A stretch of 64,000 nucleotides of DNA from Lysobacter capsici (GTDB lineage: Bacteria; Pseudomonadota; Gammaproteobacteria; Xanthomonadales; Xanthomonadaceae): NCBI RefSeq assembly GCF_014779555.2, contig NZ_CP094357.1, positions 5,828,001-5,892,000 on the forward strand, written 5' to 3'. Both the position numbers and the translations under genes were made by a program. Below, piece after piece: positions 3,208-62,446 of this stretch. Numbering within the stretch: the first letter of the stretch is position 1; each line of letters opens with the position of its first letter. Under the pieces are notes generated by a model. The model made no database searches and was not told where the DNA came from. It worked only from the letters and a program-made list of their open reading frames with translations.

Positions 3208-3830
3208 GCACGACGACGACCTCCGGTACCGGCATGCGCGCGCGCTGGCGTTGGCGCGATGCGCTGTGGATCGTGCTGGCGCTGATCGCGGTGGTCGCGC
3301 TGCGCAAGGGCGAGTCGAGCTACGAGCAACGCGACGCGCCGTTGGTGCAGCACGCGCGCGGCTCGGCGCGGGCCGAGGGCCGCAACTTCGCGGTCGAGGT
3401 CGGCAACGTCAAGGCCGCGCGCGCCTATCTGCTCAAGGGCGACTTCAGCCGCTCGGAGGATCTGCTGCTGCGCACCCCGGGGCTGTGGCTGTCGGTGCTG
3501 GCCAAGGTCGAATCGACCCAGCGGCCGGGCTACGTCAGCGCGCAATTGCTGACCCGCGACGGTCTGGTCTACGCCGCGTCCAGCGCCGAACGCCCCAAAC
3601 TCAAGGGCATCAACCTGAGCGAGCGTCCGGTCGCGCCGGGCCTGCCCGAGAACGGCGCCTGGTTCTTCGAAGTGCCGGCCGACCGGCTCGAAGGCGCGCA
3701 CCTGCAACTGTATTGGGGCAACGGCCTGCCGCAGGGCGGCGACAGCCTGGTCGACGTCGACCTGGGCATCGACGCGGCGCGCGCGCGCAAGCTGCTGGCC
3801 GAAGCGAAACCGGTATTGGATCTGCGCTGA
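3204..3830 (+). CDS. Membrane-anchored protein of unknown function (operon gene 2)
   Basis: This 208-residue product starts inside the stop of the previous gene (ATGA overlap), so the two are translationally coupled. It has a membrane segment at about residues 17-31 after a basic stretch (RARWRWR), then an extracytoplasmic domain of about 170 residues. No catalytic motif, cysteine cluster or known family signature is visible. The overall plan repeats that of its two neighbours. Function is unknown; a structural or sensory envelope role is only an inference from the layout. Confidence 0.75.
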   Translation: MSTTTTSGTGMRARWRWRDALWIVLALIAVVALRKGESSYEQRDAPLVQHARGSARAEGRNFAVEVGNVKAARAYLLKGDFSRSEDLLLRTPGLWLSVLAKVESTQRPGYVSAQLLTRDGLVYAASSAERPKLKGINLSERPVAPGLPENGAWFFEVPADRLEGAHLQLYWGNGLPQGGDSLVDVDLGIDAARARKLLAEAKPVLDLR

Positions 3831-24546: not shown

Positions 24547-24590
24547 GTTACCGCGACAGTCCGACGCACCCACCACCCGTTGCGCAAGCA

Positions 24591-24634
24591 TTCCCCCCTT
24601 TGAAAAAGGGGGGCCAGGGGGGATTTGCTTTTGC
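24591..24634. repeat. CCCTTTGAAAAAGGG-family palindrome
   Basis: TTCCCCCCTTTGAAAAAGGG and the following GGGCCAGGGGGGATTTGC form a hairpin plus tail. A near-identical copy lies between gltB and gltD at 48323. Confidence 0.85.
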
Positions 24635-33006: not shown

Positions 33007-33327
33007 GACGCGGGGGTCTGGGGTGCGGCGCGCAAGGATACTCGGTGCGCGCCACTACCACCTGAATTGTCCGGCGTGCTTCGAGGTCAGTGGGAATTAT
33101 TGAAGGCCGCTGCCCCCGATTTCCGCGTCACTACAGCCGTCATTCCCGCGAACGCGGGAATCCAGTGTCTTTAACCGTAGCCACACGAAAGTCGCTGGAT
33201 TCCCGCGTTCGCGGGAATGACGTCGGAAAGAATGTCGCGGTGGAGCCCTGGATCCCCGCCTTCGCGGGGATGACGAGCAAAGACAGATTCGGCAAAGCCT
33301 TCGCGATTCCCGATCACACCAACGCGA
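33007..33327. other. Intergenic region with REP cluster
   Basis: No gene is seen in these 321 bases. Three arms of the CCCGCGAA(G/C)GCGGG family lie at 33139, 33195 and 33248; the first two pair with each other as a doublet and the third is of the other subtype. Confidence 0.8.
33139..33274. repeat. REP doublet plus single arm
   Basis: The doublet (33139-33221) has the variant GTCATTCCCGCGAACGCGGG, also found at 56791. The single arm (33248-33274) has the GAAGGCGGGG variant, as at 28404. Two subtypes of the family are therefore side by side. Confidence 0.85.
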
Positions 33328-33961: not shown

Positions 33962-36451
33962 ATGTCCGCCCTGATCGACCCGTCCTCGCGCGATCTCGTC
34001 CCCTCGCCCGCCGCGGCCCGCGCGCTGGCCCGCAGCGACAGCGAGGAAGCCATCGACGCCCGCCACGGCGGCGCGCTGGCGCAGCGCCTGCAGCGCCGCT
34101 ACCGCGACCGCATCACCGGCAGTTTCACCATCCCCGGGCGCGAAGGCCGCTACGCGCCGCTGCCCGAGGACCTGCCCGAATCGCTCAAGGCCGCGCTGCG
34201 CGCGCGCGGCATCGACCGCCTCTACAGCCACCAGGCGCAGGCCTGGGACGCGACCCAGGCCGGCGAGCACGTCGCCGTGGTCACCCCGACCGCCTCGGGC
34301 AAGTCGCTGTGCTACACCCTGCCGGTGGTGGCCGCGGCGATGACCCGCGGGGCCAAGGCGCTGTACCTGTTTCCGACCAAGGCCCTGGCCCAGGACCAGG
34401 TCGCCGAGTTGCTGGAGCTCAACCGCGCCGGCGACCTGGGGGTCAAGGCCTTCACCTTCGACGGCGACACCCCCGGCGAAGCGCGCCAGGCGATCCGCCT
34501 GCACGGCGACATCGTCGTGTCCAACCCCGACATGCTGCATCAGGCGATCCTGCCGCATCACACCAAGTGGGCGCAGTTCTTCGAGAACCTGCGCTACATC
34601 GTGATCGACGAGATCCACACCTACCGCGGCGTGTTCGGCAGCCACGTCGCCGGGGTGCTGCGGCGCCTGCAACGGATCTGCGCGTTCTACGGCGTCGCCC
34701 CGCAATTCATCCTGTGCTCGGCGACGATCGGCAATCCCAAGGCCCACGCCGAGGCGCTGATCGAACAACCGGTGCGCGCGATCCTGGATTCGGGCGCGCC
34801 GACCGGCGACAAGCACGTGCTGCTGTGGAACCCGCCGGTGGTCAACGCCGACCTGGGCCTGCGCGCGTCGGCGCGCTCGCAGAGCAACCGGATCGCGCGC
34901 ATCGCGATCAAGGCGGGGTTGAAGACGCTCATCTTCGCCCAGACCCGGCTGATGGTCGAAGTGCTGACCAAGTACCTCAAGGACGTGTTCGATCACGACC
35001 CGCGCAAGCCCGCGCGCATCCGCGCCTACCGCGGCGGCTATCTGCCGAGCGAGCGCCGCGAGGCCGAACGCGCGATGCGCGACGGCCGCATCGACGGCAT
35101 CGTCTCGACTTCGGCGCTGGAACTGGGCGTGGACATCGGCAGTCTCGACGTGGTCGTGCTCAACGGCTATCCGGGCTCGGTCGCAGCCACTTGGCAGCGC
35201 TTCGGCCGCGCCGGCCGGCGCCAGCAGCCGTCGCTGGGCATCCTGGTCGCCAGCTCGCAGCCGCTCGATCAATACGTCGTGCGGCATCCGGATTTCTTCG
35301 CCGACGCCTCGCCCGAACATGCGCGCATCGCGCCGGACCAGCCGCTGATCCTGTTCGATCACATCCGCTGCGCCGCGTTCGAACTGCCGTTCCAGCACGG
35401 CGAGAATTTCGGCCCGATCGATCCGGAAGTGTTCCTCGAAGCCCTGGCCGAAACCGGCGTGGTGCATCGCGAAGGCGAGCGCTGGGAATGGATCGCCGAC
35501 AGCTACCCGGCCAACGCGGTCAGCCTGCGCTCGGTCGCCGACGGCAATTTCGTCGTGGTCGATCGCAGCGACGGGCGCCAGGTCATCATCGCCGAGGTCG
35601 ATTACTCGGCCGCCGCGCTGACCCTGTACGAAGGCGCGATCCACATGATCCAGTCGGTGCCGTATCAGGTCGAACGCCTCGACTGGGACGGCCGCAAGGC
35701 TTATGTGACCCGCACCCACGTCGACTACTACACCGACTCGATCGACTACACCAAGCTCAAGGTGCTCGAACGTTTCGACGGTGGTGAGGCCGGCCGCGGC
35801 GACAGCCATCACGGCGAAGTGCATGTGGTCCGGCGCGTGGCCGGTTACAAGAAGATTCGTTACTACACCCACGAAAGCATCGGCTACGGGCCGGTCAATC
35901 TGCCCGATCAGGAACTGCACACGACCGCGGTGTGGTGGCAGCTGCCGCAGGGCGTGCTGCTGTCGCGCTTCGGCTCCAGGCACGAGGCGCTGGACGGGTT
36001 CCTCGGCGCCGCGCATGCGCTGCACATCGTCGCCACGGTCGCGGTGATGGCCGATGCGCGCGACCTGCAGAAGTCGGTCGGCAACGGCGACGGCGCGTGG
36101 TTCGCGACTCAGGACGCGAACGGCCGCGGCCAGCTGCGCGGCGGCGAACACGAGGCGCCGCTCGGCGGCCCGGTGGCGATGCTGGAAGTGCAGCAGTTCG
36201 TGCCGACCGTGTACCTGTACGACAACTTCCCCGGCGGCGTGGGCTTGAGCGAGCCGCTGTGGCTGCGCCAGGCCGAACTGGTCGGCCGCGCGCTGGAATT
36301 GGTCGAACGCTGCGACTGCCGCGCCGGCTGCCCGGCCTGCGTCGGCCCGGTGCTGGCGGCCGACGAAGACCGCGAACAGACGACGCCGCGGTCGCTGGCC
36401 TTGCAGGTGCTGCGCTTGTTGAGTGGGCACGACGACGGCGACCTCGCATGA
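33962..36451 (+). CDS. mrfA: MrfA-like superfamily 2 DNA-repair helicase
   Basis: The 829-residue protein matches the DEAD/DEAH helicase group with a C-terminal DUF1998 domain (YprA/MrfA and Lhr-like). Visible motifs are TPTASGKSL (Walker A, residues 108-116), DEIH (216-219), SATIGNP, the helicase-C block LELGVDIGSLDVVV and QRFGRAGRR (motif VI). The C-terminal cysteine cluster CDCRAGCPACVG starts at residue 784 (C784, C786, C790, C793), as in MrfA where it binds zinc. In Bacillus subtilis MrfA works with the MrfB exonuclease to repair mitomycin C damage. Here the next gene encodes an MrfB-like nuclease and starts within this stop (ATGA), which strongly supports the assignment. Confidence 0.88.
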   Translation: MSALIDPSSRDLVPSPAAARALARSDSEEAIDARHGGALAQRLQRRYRDRITGSFTIPGREGRYAPLPEDLPESLKAALRARGIDRLYSHQAQAWDATQAGEHVAVVTPTASGKSLCYTLPVVAAAMTRGAKALYLFPTKALAQDQVAELLELNRAGDLGVKAFTFDGDTPGEARQAIRLHGDIVVSNPDMLHQAILPHHTKWAQFFENLRYIVIDEIHTYRGVFGSHVAGVLRRLQRICAFYGVAPQFILCSATIGNPKAHAEALIEQPVRAILDSGAPTGDKHVLLWNPPVVNADLGLRASARSQSNRIARIAIKAGLKTLIFAQTRLMVEVLTKYLKDVFDHDPRKPARIRAYRGGYLPSERREAERAMRDGRIDGIVSTSALELGVDIGSLDVVVLNGYPGSVAATWQRFGRAGRRQQPSLGILVASSQPLDQYVVRHPDFFADASPEHARIAPDQPLILFDHIRCAAFELPFQHGENFGPIDPEVFLEALAETGVVHREGERWEWIADSYPANAVSLRSVADGNFVVVDRSDGRQVIIAEVDYSAAALTLYEGAIHMIQSVPYQVERLDWDGRKAYVTRTHVDYYTDSIDYTKLKVLERFDGGEAGRGDSHHGEVHVVRRVAGYKKIRYYTHESIGYGPVNLPDQELHTTAVWWQLPQGVLLSRFGSRHEALDGFLGAAHALHIVATVAVMADARDLQKSVGNGDGAWFATQDANGRGQLRGGEHEAPLGGPVAMLEVQQFVPTVYLYDNFPGGVGLSEPLWLRQAELVGRALELVERCDCRAGCPACVGPVLAADEDREQTTPRSLALQVLRLLSGHDDGDLA

Positions 36452-37737
36452 GTCTGACCCTGGCCAAATTGCGGGCGCTGCAGCGGCAGGCTGGGCGGGC
36501 TGAGGCGGAGGTTGCGTCTGCGCCGGAGGGGAAAGCGAATCTCCCCCGGCCCCTCTTTTCCAAAGAGGGGAGACCAGCGGATGCGTCGGCTACCGAATCT
36601 CACCGCGAAGTCGTCGGCCACGACGCCGTTGCCGACACCATCCAGAAAGAGGCCGCCTTTTCGAACCGCGACGCCAGCGCTCCCCTCTTTGGAAAAGAGG
36701 GGTTGGGGGAGATTCGCTCTTCGCACACGTCAGTCGATACGACCCCGCTCGCGGCGCATCCCCGCCCACCCACTGACACAAGCCCAAGCCGCGACGCAAG
36801 CGCTCCCCTCTTCGGAAAAGAAGGGTTGGGCGAGATCCGTTCTTCGCGCACCGACATCGATGCACTGCGCCGCCTGATCGCCTTGCGCGAACGCAAGCCC
36901 AGCGCCGCATCCGCGCCCACCGACGCAGCCGCGGCACCGCAGACCGCGCCGCCCCGCGCGTTCCCACGATCCGTCCCCGCCCATTCCGGCAACGCGAACC
37001 CGACACCCAACCGCAACCTGCGCGCCCTGCCCGCCGAGCGCTCGCTCCCAGGCGAAGAAATCGCCCCCGGCCTGCATCTGATCCAGGCGCACCTGCCGCT
37101 GCCGACACCCGCGCAATCGCTGCCGCTCGCGTTCGCCAAGCGCCCCGACGACGCGCTCGACCCGCGTCGACTGCTGTTCTTCGACACCGAAACCACCGGC
37201 CTGGCCGGCGGCACCGGCACCCGCGCCTTCATGATCGGCGCCGCCGACTGGTATCACGATCGGCAACTCGGCGACGGCCTGCGCATCCGCCAGTTGATGA
37301 TCTCCACCTTGTCCGCCGAACCGGCGATGCTGCGCGCCTTCGCCCAGTGGATCGAACCGGGCACGGTGCTGTCGAGCTACAACGGCCGCTGCTACGACAC
37401 GCCGCTGTTGAACACGCGTTATCGCCTGGCGCGCATCGCCAATCCGCTGAGCGGACTGGATCACGTCGACCTGCTGTTCCCGACCCGGCGGATGTACCGC
37501 GGCGTGTGGGAAAACTGCCGGCTGGCGACCATGGAGCGCGAATTGCTGCACATCGTGCGCGAGGACGACCTGCCCGGTTCGCAGGCGCCGGCGGCATGGC
37601 TGCATTACCTGCGCGGCGGGTCGTCGGCGTTGCTGCGTCGGGTGGCGGCGCATAACCATCAGGACGTGGTGACCTTGGCGCAGCTGATGCTCAAGTTGAT
37701 CGAGGCCTACGACGAGCGCGCGTTGGCTTCGGCGTAG
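36448..37737 (+). CDS. mrfB: MrfB-like DEDDh exonuclease with in-frame repeat insertions
   Basis: The 429-residue protein has a C-terminal RNase H-like YprB/MrfB exonuclease domain (about residues 235-425). Catalytic motifs are FDTETTG (D246, E248), SYNGRCYD (D317) and AHNHQD (D406 with nearby H402/H404). It should degrade damaged DNA strands unwound by MrfA. The N-terminal 200 residues are unusual: three copies of a dispersed palindromic repeat have been inserted in frame, encoding PLFSKEG at 35-41 and two copies of RDASAPLFGKEGLGEIRSS at 75-93 and 115-133. The rest of that region is low-complexity. The start overlaps the mrfA stop, so the pair is coupled. Confidence 0.88.
   Translation: MSLTLAKLRALQRQAGRAEAEVASAPEGKANLPRPLFSKEGRPADASATESHREVVGHDAVADTIQKEAAFSNRDASAPLFGKEGLGEIRSSHTSVDTTPLAAHPRPPTDTSPSRDASAPLFGKEGLGEIRSSRTDIDALRRLIALRERKPSAASAPTDAAAAPQTAPPRAFPRSVPAHSGNANPTPNRNLRALPAERSLPGEEIAPGLHLIQAHLPLPTPAQSLPLAFAKRPDDALDPRRLLFFDTETTGLAGGTGTRAFMIGAADWYHDRQLGDGLRIRQLMISTLSAEPAMLRAFAQWIEPGTVLSSYNGRCYDTPLLNTRYRLARIANPLSGLDHVDLLFPTRRMYRGVWENCRLATMERELLHIVREDDLPGSQAPAAWLHYLRGGSSALLRRVAAHNHQDVVTLAQLMLKLIEAYDERALASA
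36533..36572. repeat. CCCTCTTTTCCAAAGAGGG palindrome inside mrfB
   Basis: AAAGCGAATC(TCCCCC) followed by GGCCCCTCTTTTCCAAAGAG forms the same hairpin as the intergenic family members. It is read through in frame in mrfB. Confidence 0.85.
36677..36722. repeat. Palindrome inside mrfB, copy 2
   Basis: The unit CTCCCCTCTTTGGAAAAGAG plus GGGTTGGGGGAGATTCGC is in opposite orientation to copy 1. It encodes RDASAPLFGKEGLGEIRSS together with its left flank. Confidence 0.85.
36799..36844. repeat. Palindrome inside mrfB, copy 3
   Basis: A diverged copy (CTCCCCTCTTCGGAAAAGAA) of the second insertion, 122 bases on. It keeps the protein reading and 15-20 bases of the flanks, so copies 2 and 3 probably arose by local duplication. 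Confidence 0.8.
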
Positions 37738-38128
37738 CGCCGGCGCGAATCACGGCTTCGTAATGACGACGCGATCTGTCGCGACGCGGTCGCGGCTCGC
37801 GCCGCTCCTACAGGTAGCCGCCCGACCTTCGCGATGTGTGTTTCCCCCTGTAGGAGCGGCGCAAGCCGCGACCGCGCCACAACGACCACGACGCCACCAT
37901 CCGCAACGCCGACGCGATCGCCAACACCGACTCCGACTCCGACAGCAACGCAATCGCGATCGCCGCCGCACCACACCCGCGCATGAACACACCGCGCATC
38001 CCGCCGAATCGCGACCATCGCCGTGTCGCATCGCCCCGCTACACTGCGCGCCCCGGCCTTCATGCGCCGCACACGCCGCCGCCCGCAGGCTCGCGGCACC
38101 GATCCGCCGAGCAGCCAGGAGCCTCGCC
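37738..38128. other. Intergenic region with REP pair
   Basis: No gene is supported in these 391 bases. It holds one REP doublet (37785-37876) and a stretch of low-complexity GAC/GAT-rich sequence upstream of the first I78-like gene. Confidence 0.7.
37785..37876. repeat. REP pair, GTAGGAGCGGCGCAAGCCGC family
   Basis: Inverted arms 37785-37813 and 37848-37876 flank a 34-base spacer. The right arm matches the one at 22952-23034 almost base for base. Confidence 0.85.
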
Positions 38129-48152: not shown

Positions 48153-48174
48153 TGGTGACGACGCGTCTGATCGG

Positions 48175-48218
48175 AAAAGCAAATCCCCCCTGCCCCCCTT
48201 TTTCAAAGGGGGGGACGG
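48175..48218. repeat. CCCTTTTTCAAAGGG-family palindrome
   Basis: AAAGCAAATCCCCCCTGCCC with CCCTTTTTCAAAGGGGGGG forms a hairpin with the flank AAAAGCAAA on both sides. It is the inverted neighbour of the copy at 48323 in the same gap. Confidence 0.85.
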
Positions 48219-48322
48219 CAAAAGCAAACGCGGTAGCTAGGAAGGTAACGACGATGGCCGGCAATTCGCGATTGGAGCACCCGAGCGAACACCTCCATAC
48301 CCGATCGAAAAAACCGATCGGG

Positions 48323-48364
48323 TTCCCCCCTTTGAAAAAGGGGGGCCAGGGGGGATTTGCTTTG
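48323..48364. repeat. CCCTTTGAAAAAGGG-family palindrome
   Basis: This copy is almost identical to the one at 24591-24634, including the tail GGGGGGATTTGCTTT. With the element at 48175 it makes an inverted pair in the gltB-gltD gap of 268 bases. Confidence 0.85.
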
Positions 48365-48378
48365 GCTGTTGCTTCTAA

Positions 48379-53367: not shown

Positions 53368-53600
53368 GTTGCCGTTCCCCCCTTTGGAAAAGGGGGGCTG
53401 GGGGGGATTCGCTTTTCGATCCGGTCGCCACGCCAAACGCAAAAGCGAATCCCCCGCGCACCGATCACTTCCGCGCAACCAACCCGCACTGGCGCTCGCC
53501 CTCTTTTACAAAGTGGGCGCCAACTTTCGCGCGCGACATCGGCAGGGTGCCGGCCTTGCATCGATCGACCCTGCATGCATCGCCATCCGAAACCCTAGGC
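53368..53600. repeat. 233-base direct repeat, copy 1
   Basis: The unit contains CCCCCCTTTGGAAAAGGGGG, the inverted pair GGATTCGCTTTT/AAAAGCGAATCC around 53405-53453, and the half palindrome CCCTCTTTTACAAAGTGGGC near 53500. Copy 2 follows directly with the same order and a 233-base offset. Confidence 0.9.
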
Positions 53601-53835
53601 TTTTGCTGTTCCCCTCTTTGGAAAAGGGGGGCTGGGGGGATTCGCTTTTCGATCCGGTCGCCACGCCAAACGCAAAAGCGAATCCCCCGCGCACCGATCA
53701 CTTCCGCGCGACCAACCTGCATCGGCGCTCGCCCCCTTTTACAAAGTGGGCACCGACTTTCGCGCGCTACATCGGCAAGGTGTGGAACCTGCATCCATCG
53801 ACACCACATCCATCACCATCGGAAGTCAGCCGCGC
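53601..53835. repeat. 233-base direct repeat, copy 2
   Basis: It keeps the two palindromes and the inverted GGATTCGCTTTT/AAAAGCGAATCC pair at the same spacing as copy 1, with scattered substitutions concentrated in the last 60 bases. The duplication therefore predates some mutation. Confidence 0.9.
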
Positions 53836-61493: not shown

Positions 61494-62446
61494 TGTAGGA
61501 TCTGCGCAAGCTGCGACCGCGAACCCACCCGTCGCGGCGAACCCGCCAGAACGCGGTCGCGACTCACGTCGCTCCTACAGTCGCTGCGATGCGACCACGC
61601 AAGACCATGCAGCAAAATTCCGACGCAAACCCGACTGTAGGAGCTGCGTAAGCTGCGACCGCGTACCAACCCCTCGCGGCGAACCTGTCAGAACGCGGTC
61701 GCGACTCACGTCGCTCCTACAGTCGCTGCGATACGACCACGCAAGACCATGCGGCAAAATTCCAACGCAAACCCGACTGTAGGAGCTGCGTAAGCTGCGA
61801 CCGCGAACCAACCCCGCGCGGCGAACCTGCCAGAACGCGGTCGCGACTCGCGTCGCTCCTACAGTCGCTTCGATGCGACCGCGTAAATCCATGCAGCAAA
61901 ATTCCGACGCAAACCCGACTGCAGGAGCTGCGCAAGCTGCGACCGCGAACCCACCCGTCGCGGCGAACCTGTCAGAACGCGGTCGCGACTCGCGTCGCTC
62001 CTACAGTCGCTGCGATGCGAGCACGCAAGACCATGCGGCAAAATTCCGACGCAAACCCGACTGTAGGAGCTGCGTAAGCTGCGACCGCGAACCAACCCCT
62101 CGCGGCGAACCTGCCAGAACGCGGTCGCGACTCGCGTCGCTCCTACAGTCGCTGCGATGCGACCGCGTAAATCCATGCGGCAAAATTCCGACGCACACCC
62201 GACTGTAGGAGCTGCGCAAGCTGCGGCCGCGAACCAACCCCGCGCGGCGAACCTGCCAGAACGCGGTCGCGACTCGCGTCGCTCCTACAGTCGCTGCGAT
62301 GCGACCACGCAAGACCATGCGGCAAAATTCCGACGCACATCCGACTGTAGGAGCTGCGCAAGCTGCGACCGCGAATCCATCCGTCGCGGCGAACGTGTCA
62401 GAACGCGGTCGCGACTTACGTCGCTCCTACAGCCGCTCCCACAGTC
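61494..62446. repeat. Tandem array of 142-base units carrying REP arms
   Basis: Seven copies begin at 61494, 61636, 61778, 61920, 62062, 62204 and 62346, each exactly 142 bases apart. Every unit has TGTAGGAGCTGCGYAAGCTG at its left and the inverse CGTCGCTCCTACAG to the right, so it is a REP doublet, plus a conserved core (CAAGACCATG, GCAAAATTCCGACGC). A decayed eighth unit follows to about 62490. The short frames inside are repeats of the same peptide and not genes. Confidence 0.95.

Follow-up and report, generated by a model that had tools for sequence, protein, structure and literature searches.

Three copies of a palindromic unit of about 45 bp lie in frame within mrfB, the gene for an MrfB-like nuclease, in the stretch of Lysobacter capsici DNA analysed here (the window; 64,000 nucleotides, positions 5,828,001-5,892,000 of a 6.24-Mb single-contig genome designated G000). 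All three fall in a linker predicted to be largely disordered, and the repeat family to which they belong is found mainly between genes, with a further clearly coding copy in hisB. We consider it probable that an old in-frame insertion of a unit resembling the repetitive extragenic palindromes (REPs) was tolerated in the linker, was duplicated locally, and was homogenised for as long as the family remained abundant, eroding otherwise. From the sequences compared, the insertion in mrfB looks old rather than recent. An earlier note on this DNA had likened the units to Rickettsia palindromic elements (RPEs); much like those, a mainly intergenic repeat has here become part of a protein, where it occupies a disordered linker and was locally duplicated, and hisB provides a second case.

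Exact CCCTCTTT...AAAGAGGG palindromes occur twice in the whole window, both times within mrfB (36551 and 36683), while 0 were expected from 100 shuffles. A covariance model built from 18 copies of the repeat recovered three units in the gene (Table 1). As claimed in the earlier note, all three keep the reading frame; they lie within the first 135 codons and encode, as that note stated, PLFSKEG once and RDASAPLFGKEGLGEIRSS twice. Copy 1, however, is oriented opposite to copies 2 and 3, which corrects the note, and with copy 2 it makes up a long inverted repeat. Copies 2 and 3 form a 63-bp direct repeat that is 89% identical, consistent with the proposed local duplication, although their spacing was measured as 123 bp (41 codons) rather than 122. 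An Rfam scan gave three matches at E < 1, all far under the gathering score; one of these, to a miRNA family (E 0.0001) across copies 1 and 2, was taken as a chance hairpin match. It is extremely improbable that the units are low-complexity look-alikes of a palindrome or collapsed repeats, because shuffles gave zero matches and mrfB units are present in four single-contig genomes (G000, G001, G003 and G008), even though several other assemblies are drafts and a deletion in one of them, G014, could be an assembly error.

The host gene encodes a DnaQ-type exonuclease domain (PF13482) and adjoins an MrfA helicase gene, the combination that marks an MrfB nuclease. Among the matches found, the closest named relative is an MrfB from Lysobacter enzymogenes, with 88% in its best segment. 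Like the product of the Lysobacter gene, Bacillus subtilis MrfB is the DEDDh exonuclease of an MrfAB repair pair with an unstructured N-terminus preceding the nuclease, which has been modelled as wrapping MrfA; it differs in its C-terminal tetratricopeptide repeat domain, and palindromic units are not mentioned in the portions of that paper cited here (PMC11194089). A structure model of the Lysobacter protein (mean predicted local distance difference test score, pLDDT, 72.8), based on a 41-row alignment in which 40 outside rows were used and two very long ones left out, places the linker between helices at residues 2-14 and 137-147, with a confident fold from about residue 200 on. Ahead of the units, the N-terminal helix shows little or no variation at M1, S2, L8, L11, Q14, A15 and G16 across the 41 MrfB sequences; the start codon therefore lies upstream, and the units are truly coding. 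The units are also confined to the linker, as had been claimed, with the linker predicted to be disordered and the RNase_H_2 domain free of them. In the same linker, a helix segment, LRRLIALRERKP, is doubled in mrfB of G007, G006 and G016 (L104, L105 and L108), a further local duplication.

A scan of the genome with the covariance model gave at least 150 copies of the family, and all family counts below are over the 150 listed. They fall into 102 clusters, 62 of which hold a single copy; many of the others are inverted pairs, and direct neighbours occur as well. Among neighbours less than 260 bp apart there are 23 inverted and 18 direct pairs. The mrfB-type consensus, GCTCCCCTCTTTGGAAAAGAGGGGTTGGGGGAGATTCGCTTTTC, is a variant of the dominant CCCCCCTTT...AAAGGGGGG form. 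Most copies are of this sister form, and the mrfB form, CCCCTCTTT, is rare, with seven copies at three or fewer mismatches, three of them within mrfB. By our own gene caller, 63 copies lie between convergent genes, 79 between co-directional genes and eight between divergent genes. A strict codon-usage caller missed the mrfB copies, which served as the positive control, and a looser stop-to-stop test was used instead. It placed 19 of the 150 copies in an open frame of a called gene: four are clearly coding (three in mrfB, one in hisB), five have no start before the unit, and the remaining 10 comprise nine possible 5' extensions and one copy on the 3' side. The family is therefore mainly intergenic, as the earlier note had it, but not otherwise wholly so, given the copy inside hisB and 10 of 150 that are possibly coding. 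None of the six frames of the unit consensus contains a stop, and 69 of the 150 copies are open in six frames, compared with 3% of base shuffles and 30% of random genomic 45-mers; the latter figure indicates that composition explains part of this openness.

The distribution of the family across genomes is patchy. Fifteen of 20 Lysobacter genomes (G000 included) have matches at E <= 1e-6, from 5 to at least 150 each, and five have none; among 99 genomes drawn from the bacterial family, 11 match at E 1e-8, in 6 of 54 genera. High copy number (at least 150), inverted pairs and convergent intergenic sites are all features of REP doublets forming hairpins (REPINs), and the genome has three Y1 genes, so that a classic REPIN mobilised by a REP-associated tyrosine transposase (RAYT, Y1) has to be considered. 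We regard this as very unlikely. The GTAG tag is absent from the 18-copy consensus and from the dominant form, no listed unit lies within 5 kb of any of the three Y1 genes, and G008 has 145 units with no Y1 (PF01797) match at E 0.001, while the unit-free genomes G004, G005, G015, G017 and G019 have two to four Y1 matches each. Tag, position and co-occurrence all being against it, RAYT mobilisation was rejected. A CGTC-tagged REP was likewise rejected, as CGTC is absent from the consensus, the dominant form included. As described in PMC3733652, GTAG/CGTC REPs resemble the Lysobacter family: most are intergenic, chiefly where the neighbouring genes converge or run in the same direction, they form dimers, and some lie within open reading frames (ORFs). 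DNA synthesis and repair genes (uvrA, uvrB, recBCD, dnaE2) are prominent among the intragenic cases. The Lysobacter unit, in contrast, has neither tag and is unlinked to Y1, and the portions of that paper cited here name neither mrfB nor hisB.

Each of the 20 Lysobacter genomes gave one mrfB match. Units scoring at least 20 bits were found in mrfB of nine genomes, 21 copies in all: three each in G000, G010, G003 and G002, four in G001, two in G008, and one each in G016, G006 and G007. G009, G011, G012, G013 and G018 have no mrfB units and are placed by the tree outside the other 15; in these five basal genomes 109-114 residues precede the nuclease, compared with 243 in G000. A peptide common to all orthologs, the pattern that the earlier note associated with an ancestral segment, is thus not what was found. 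Since the unit-bearing genomes fall into three lineages of one clade (G001/G002; G006/G007/G016; G000/G003/G010/G008), one old insertion is the simplest account. Outside these genomes, 80 loci were found, of which 27 from distant groups (L063-L089) were left out and 53 (L010-L062) kept; L010 is itself an enzymogenes-type Lysobacter. The start of the linker was found in 42 of the 53 and not in 10, and L059 gave no match. No PLFxKEG-like peptide was present in the 42 loci with the linker read, and a scan of the 53 with the unit model gave nothing at 20 bits or above, with weak matches of 14.5-19.5 bits in L019, L031, L034, L036 and L060. mrfB was also considered as a recurrent target of units in other genera: of eight genomes, three gave a match to mrfB, and no unit match was obtained in these three at E 0.01. 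In L060, from a Lysobacterales metagenome-assembled genome, a different coding-looking repeat, PLPSRERGRGEGG, lies upstream of mrfB (3457-3690), with weak unit-model matches of 14.5-17.1 bits.

Within the 15-genome clade, the state of the mrfB units parallels the abundance of the family. Units of at least 45 bits are present in mrfB of seven of the eight family-rich genomes, all but G014, and in none of the seven family-poor genomes (p 0.001), a contrast weaker than the p value, as the family-poor lineages are two independent losses. In G006 and G007, which have seven units genome-wide, the mrfB copy is strongly eroded (22-23 bits), whereas that of their relative G016, with 149 units, scores 54 bits. 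The other family-poor genomes are the five enzymogenes-type ones (G004, G005, G015, G017 and G019), which have no unit match genome-wide. All five nevertheless encode FGPDGL or FGPEGL (FGP[DE]GL) near the place of copy 3, and in three of them this segment shares 5-6 of 15 residues with unit-bearing orthologs (shuffled mean about 1, p 0.0002-0.002). We infer that FGP[DE]GL is an eroded unit, although an older look-alike peptide is possible. The only clear loss of the pair is in G014 (L093), which is sister to G008: everything between copy 1 and the plus copy, both included, has been deleted except for a 16.8-bit remnant. The nuclease part stays open, and the N-terminal frame is out of register with it. 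The junction, read by eye, lies at TCTCCCC, a sequence that G008 has within copy 1 and again just past the plus copy. This deletion looks like an excision and fits slippage across a hairpin, but could be an assembly error in a draft of about 70 contigs.

Comparison of G000 with G010 showed that the units in mrfB diverge more slowly than the DNA between them: copies 1 and 2 differ at 2 of 90 positions and the spacers at 57 of 183 (p 2e-9), compared with 7 of 45 for copy 3 and 13 of 100 fourfold sites of the nuclease. Relative to the spacers, copies 1 and 2 were slower in each of the three pairs of species (p <= 2.5e-5), and relative to fourfold sites they were slower in the one pair compared (p 0.006); the spacers were faster than fourfold sites in the two pairs compared (p 0.0008 and 0.004), although codon bias may slow the latter. 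Units elsewhere in the genome were compared between G000 and G003, with rough collinearity (within 90 kb) required for orthology. Among the 41 G000 units that could be placed in G003, an ortholog was present for 36, and five lacked a match. Mean identity of the 36 orthologous units is 0.92, compared with 0.86 for random paralogues and 0.96 for the best paralogue, and for the 32 non-coding ones the values are 0.93, 0.87 and 0.96. DNA beside the non-coding units was often unalignable in the intervals inspected. Since units outside genes are conserved between species as well, the peptide is not required for this conservation.

These comparisons bear on whether selection, at either level, maintains the units. 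Selection could act on the peptide PLFxKEGLGEIRSS as a motif by which the MrfB linker binds a partner such as the MrfA helicase; the units would then persist for the sake of the protein, with the intergenic copies incidental. The mrfB units whose frame was read do share one frame, and the peptide lies near a conserved LRR helix; we nevertheless consider this explanation unlikely, as non-coding units are also kept between species, the peptide is lost or eroded in two lineages (G006/G007, and the five-genome enzymogenes-type clade, which keeps part of it), five congeners and the outside loci read do without it, and the frame in hisB differs. Alternatively, a long hairpin could act on the mrfB message or DNA, through translation, stability or a palindrome-binding protein, and be kept by selection on the nucleic acid. 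RNA folding of 36500-36860 gave z = -5.6, copies 1 and 2 are little diverged between G000 and G010 at synonymous sites as well, and REPs have been proposed as RNA elements (PMC3733652). Yet unit number (0-4) and spacing vary between species while the gene stays intact, and G016 has a single unit and hence no inverted pairing, which makes this explanation quite unlikely. A functional role of the peptide or the hairpin is possible but not needed, and the peptide may well be without function.

Homogenisation by repair between the arms of a hairpin predicts that neighbouring units share their loop base, and this prediction has statistical support. The loop base is equal in 16 of the 23 inverted pairs (7.9 expected, p 0.0003) and in 17 of the 18 direct pairs. 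Two inverted G000 pairs, 162364/162487 and 4075070/4075167, have loops G,G and G,C, and in G003 both arms have A in each; wherever both loops of an inverted pair could be read in G003 (five pairs), they agreed. The loop base follows orthology too (18 of 34, 10.5 expected, p 0.0015). Two observations bear on a possible miniature inverted-repeat transposable element, which would have terminal inverted repeats around a conserved interior and a target-site duplication: the spacers of inverted pairs gave almost no BLAST matches to one another, and TTCG flanks many of the hisB inserts (see below). For the suggestion in the earlier note of a mobile or template-switching repeat, the homogenised inverted arms thus speak for template switching, whereas transposition was not seen and a mobilising enzyme was not identified.

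The fourth coding copy lies within the part of hisB that encodes the IGPD domain, flanked by GRYGF and VLPMDE, and is read in frame SESPLAPLLQRGE, unlike the frame used in mrfB. Among the 20 genomes this site holds a unit-bearing insert of 55-65 residues in five, an insert of 16-47 residues without a unit in 10, and no insert in five, which are the same five basal genomes that lack mrfB units. Since 10 genomes have extensions with no unit, the loop could already be lengthened independently of the unit or ahead of its arrival. By eye, TTCG flanks the insert at either end in 10 of the 15 insert-bearing genomes (not in G000, where the left side reads TTTG, nor in G001, G002, G006 and G007), possibly a target duplication of the loop extension. 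In-frame units are therefore present in two unrelated genes, mrfB and hisB, each with unit-free orthologs, which is the pattern of RPE-like elements. In hisB of G002 and G001 (L260 and L261), a tandem ESTLQ repeat occupies the same loop instead of a palindromic unit.

We propose that a REP-like unit of about 45 bp entered mrfB once, presumably by transposition, in the ancestor of one Lysobacter clade, either as an inverted pair or soon becoming one. Its landing in a disordered linker and a consensus stop-free in six frames would have made it tolerable. The plus-oriented copy would then have been duplicated and lost locally by recombination, giving one to four units per gene. While the family was abundant, the in-gene copies would have stayed near consensus, probably through hairpin arms templating each other's repair (template switching) and direct copies converting each other; where it died out, they would have eroded into ordinary linker peptide. 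More tentatively, and with considerable doubt on our part, the family may spread by a non-RAYT system and undergo hairpin-driven concerted evolution inside proteins as well as between genes, which would reset in-gene copies to consensus, accelerate the linker past the synonymous rate and leave a disordered peptide when the family dies.

Several results weigh against this history. No clean empty site was found in mrfB: the check for empty sites did yield unit-free orthologs, but these congeners have a much shorter linker, so that none is readable, and no alignment of the unit-free linkers with the junction was obtained. Elsewhere, none of six G000/G003 intervals gave a clean empty junction (three have no unit but are badly aligned, and three keep the unit), and no transposition event was seen among the 41 placed units. 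Conservation within mrfB is uneven, as copy 1 is 9-11% diverged in comparisons with G003, which is near the level of fourfold sites, and copy 3, at 16-24% divergence among the three species, is not kept to the consensus. Birth as a pair would also give loop concordance. In hisB, an extension without the unit is commoner than the unit, which may have entered a pre-existing loop. With respect to erosion, the link with family abundance rests on the two independent losses noted above and has G014 as a family-rich exception; the other two enzymogenes-type genomes share only 1 of 15 residues ungapped, their motif being offset by two residues; and retention of FGP[DE]GL in five of five such genomes would also be given by selection for a binding peptide.

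Several known systems are similar in part. RPEs, as described in PMC6649704 and PMC10969869, are short palindromes found between genes and in frame in unrelated protein genes, and their repeat identity is lost with time; compared by description only, they differ in being about 150 bp long, in ten families, with nearly half in ORFs (PMC10969869), versus about 45 bp and 4 of 150 clearly coding here. Template-switching homogenisation of arms in yeast (PMC8604942) and coding palindromes of nematomorph mitochondria (PMC6649704) likewise keep inverted arms within genes alike, but those accounts concern native gene sequence, whereas the Lysobacter arms are copies of an interspersed repeat. Enterobacterial RU-type miniature inverted-repeat transposable elements (RU/MITEs) are also described as small, supposedly mobile repeats whose open frames join proteins, with longer units of 103-168 bp (PMC2759123). 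In the literature on REPs and Lysobacter, judged by title or the start of the abstract, no paper dealt with this subject, and related searches yielded none about units in mrfB or hisB. In-frame palindromes, in repair genes included, are thus already known as a phenomenon; within the literature searched, the family, its presence in mrfB and hisB and the series of eroded states appear to be new. The orthologs offer, outside Rickettsia, a natural series for repeat DNA becoming protein: never inserted, intact, partly eroded, probably fully eroded and excised. A second protein, HisB, carries the insert inside a catalytic domain. Sister species rich and poor in the family make selection versus homogenisation in coding palindromes directly testable, and, because a large part of an MrfB linker can derive from repeats, caution is warranted in motif hunting there. 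If concerted evolution inside proteins is true, MrfB and HisB record the repeat history of their lineage.

Table 1. Positions of mrfB, its palindromic units and related features, numbered from the first letter of the window.
Feature	Position	Strand	Evidence or remark
Palindromic unit copy 1	36529..36573	-	68.4 bits, E 1.7e-22; mrfB frame reads KANLPRPLFSKEG
Palindromic unit copy 2	36679..36723	+	74.8 bits, E 7e-25; mrfB frame reads APLFGKEGLGEIRSS
Palindromic unit copy 3	36802..36846	+	58.3 bits, E 8.9e-19; DNA degenerate, peptide as copy 2
Long inverted repeat from copies 1 and 2	36534..36718		Arms 36534-36572 and 36680-36718; 39 nt, 95% complementary, 107 nt apart
mrfB, MrfB-like DEDDh-type exonuclease, 429 aa	36448..37737	+	RNase_H_2 PF13482, E 3e-38
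Linker, aa 20-135, predicted largely disordered	36505..36852	+	Carries all three units; pLDDT block means 36-57 over aa 21-140
Predicted helix DALRRLIALRE, aa 137-147	36856..36888	+	Structure model; shortly past copy 3; LRR motif common to orthologs
Nuclease domain RNase_H_2, aa 243-417	37174..37698	+	Domain search and covariance-model scan; unit-free
mrfA	33962-36451		DEAD, Helicase_C and MrfA Zn-binding (PF09369) domains; mrfB start overlaps mrfA stop
Family unit elsewhere in window	24590..24634	+	47.9 bits
Inverted family pair	48173..48366	48173-48216 -, 48322-48366 +	45.2 and 47.6 bits; loop base alike (G000 5876173)
Direct family pair	53374..53651	+	53374-53418 and 53608-53651; 60 and 52.7 bits

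Beyond the pairs, G000 contains tandem arrays of the unit with a period of about 203-228 bp (2134034-2134990, 2726026-2726480 and 6199608-6200080). In their spacers, the separate arrays share an inverted variant that accompanies the unit (GAATCCCCCGCGC ... GCCCCCTTTTNCAAAGTGGGC or similar). Some intergenic units of G000 (e.g. at 114649, 5852590 and 162364) lie amid simple tandem repeats of TAGCAC, GAACAGC or AAAGCC that differ between sister species.

The window also contains other repeats. A further stretch of repeat-like DNA lies at about 33120-33290 (coordinates estimated from the ORF list), where open frames read RHSRERGNPV and IPAFAGMT. Directly past the mrfB stop, another palindrome with CTGTAGGAGCGGC forms an inverted pair (37778-37883; 37-nt arms, 89% complementary) that is possibly a GTAG-type REP pair. 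At one mismatch or fewer, CTGTAGGAGCGGC occurs 19 times in the window, compared with 0.1 expected, with many of the occurrences in an array at 61568-62444.

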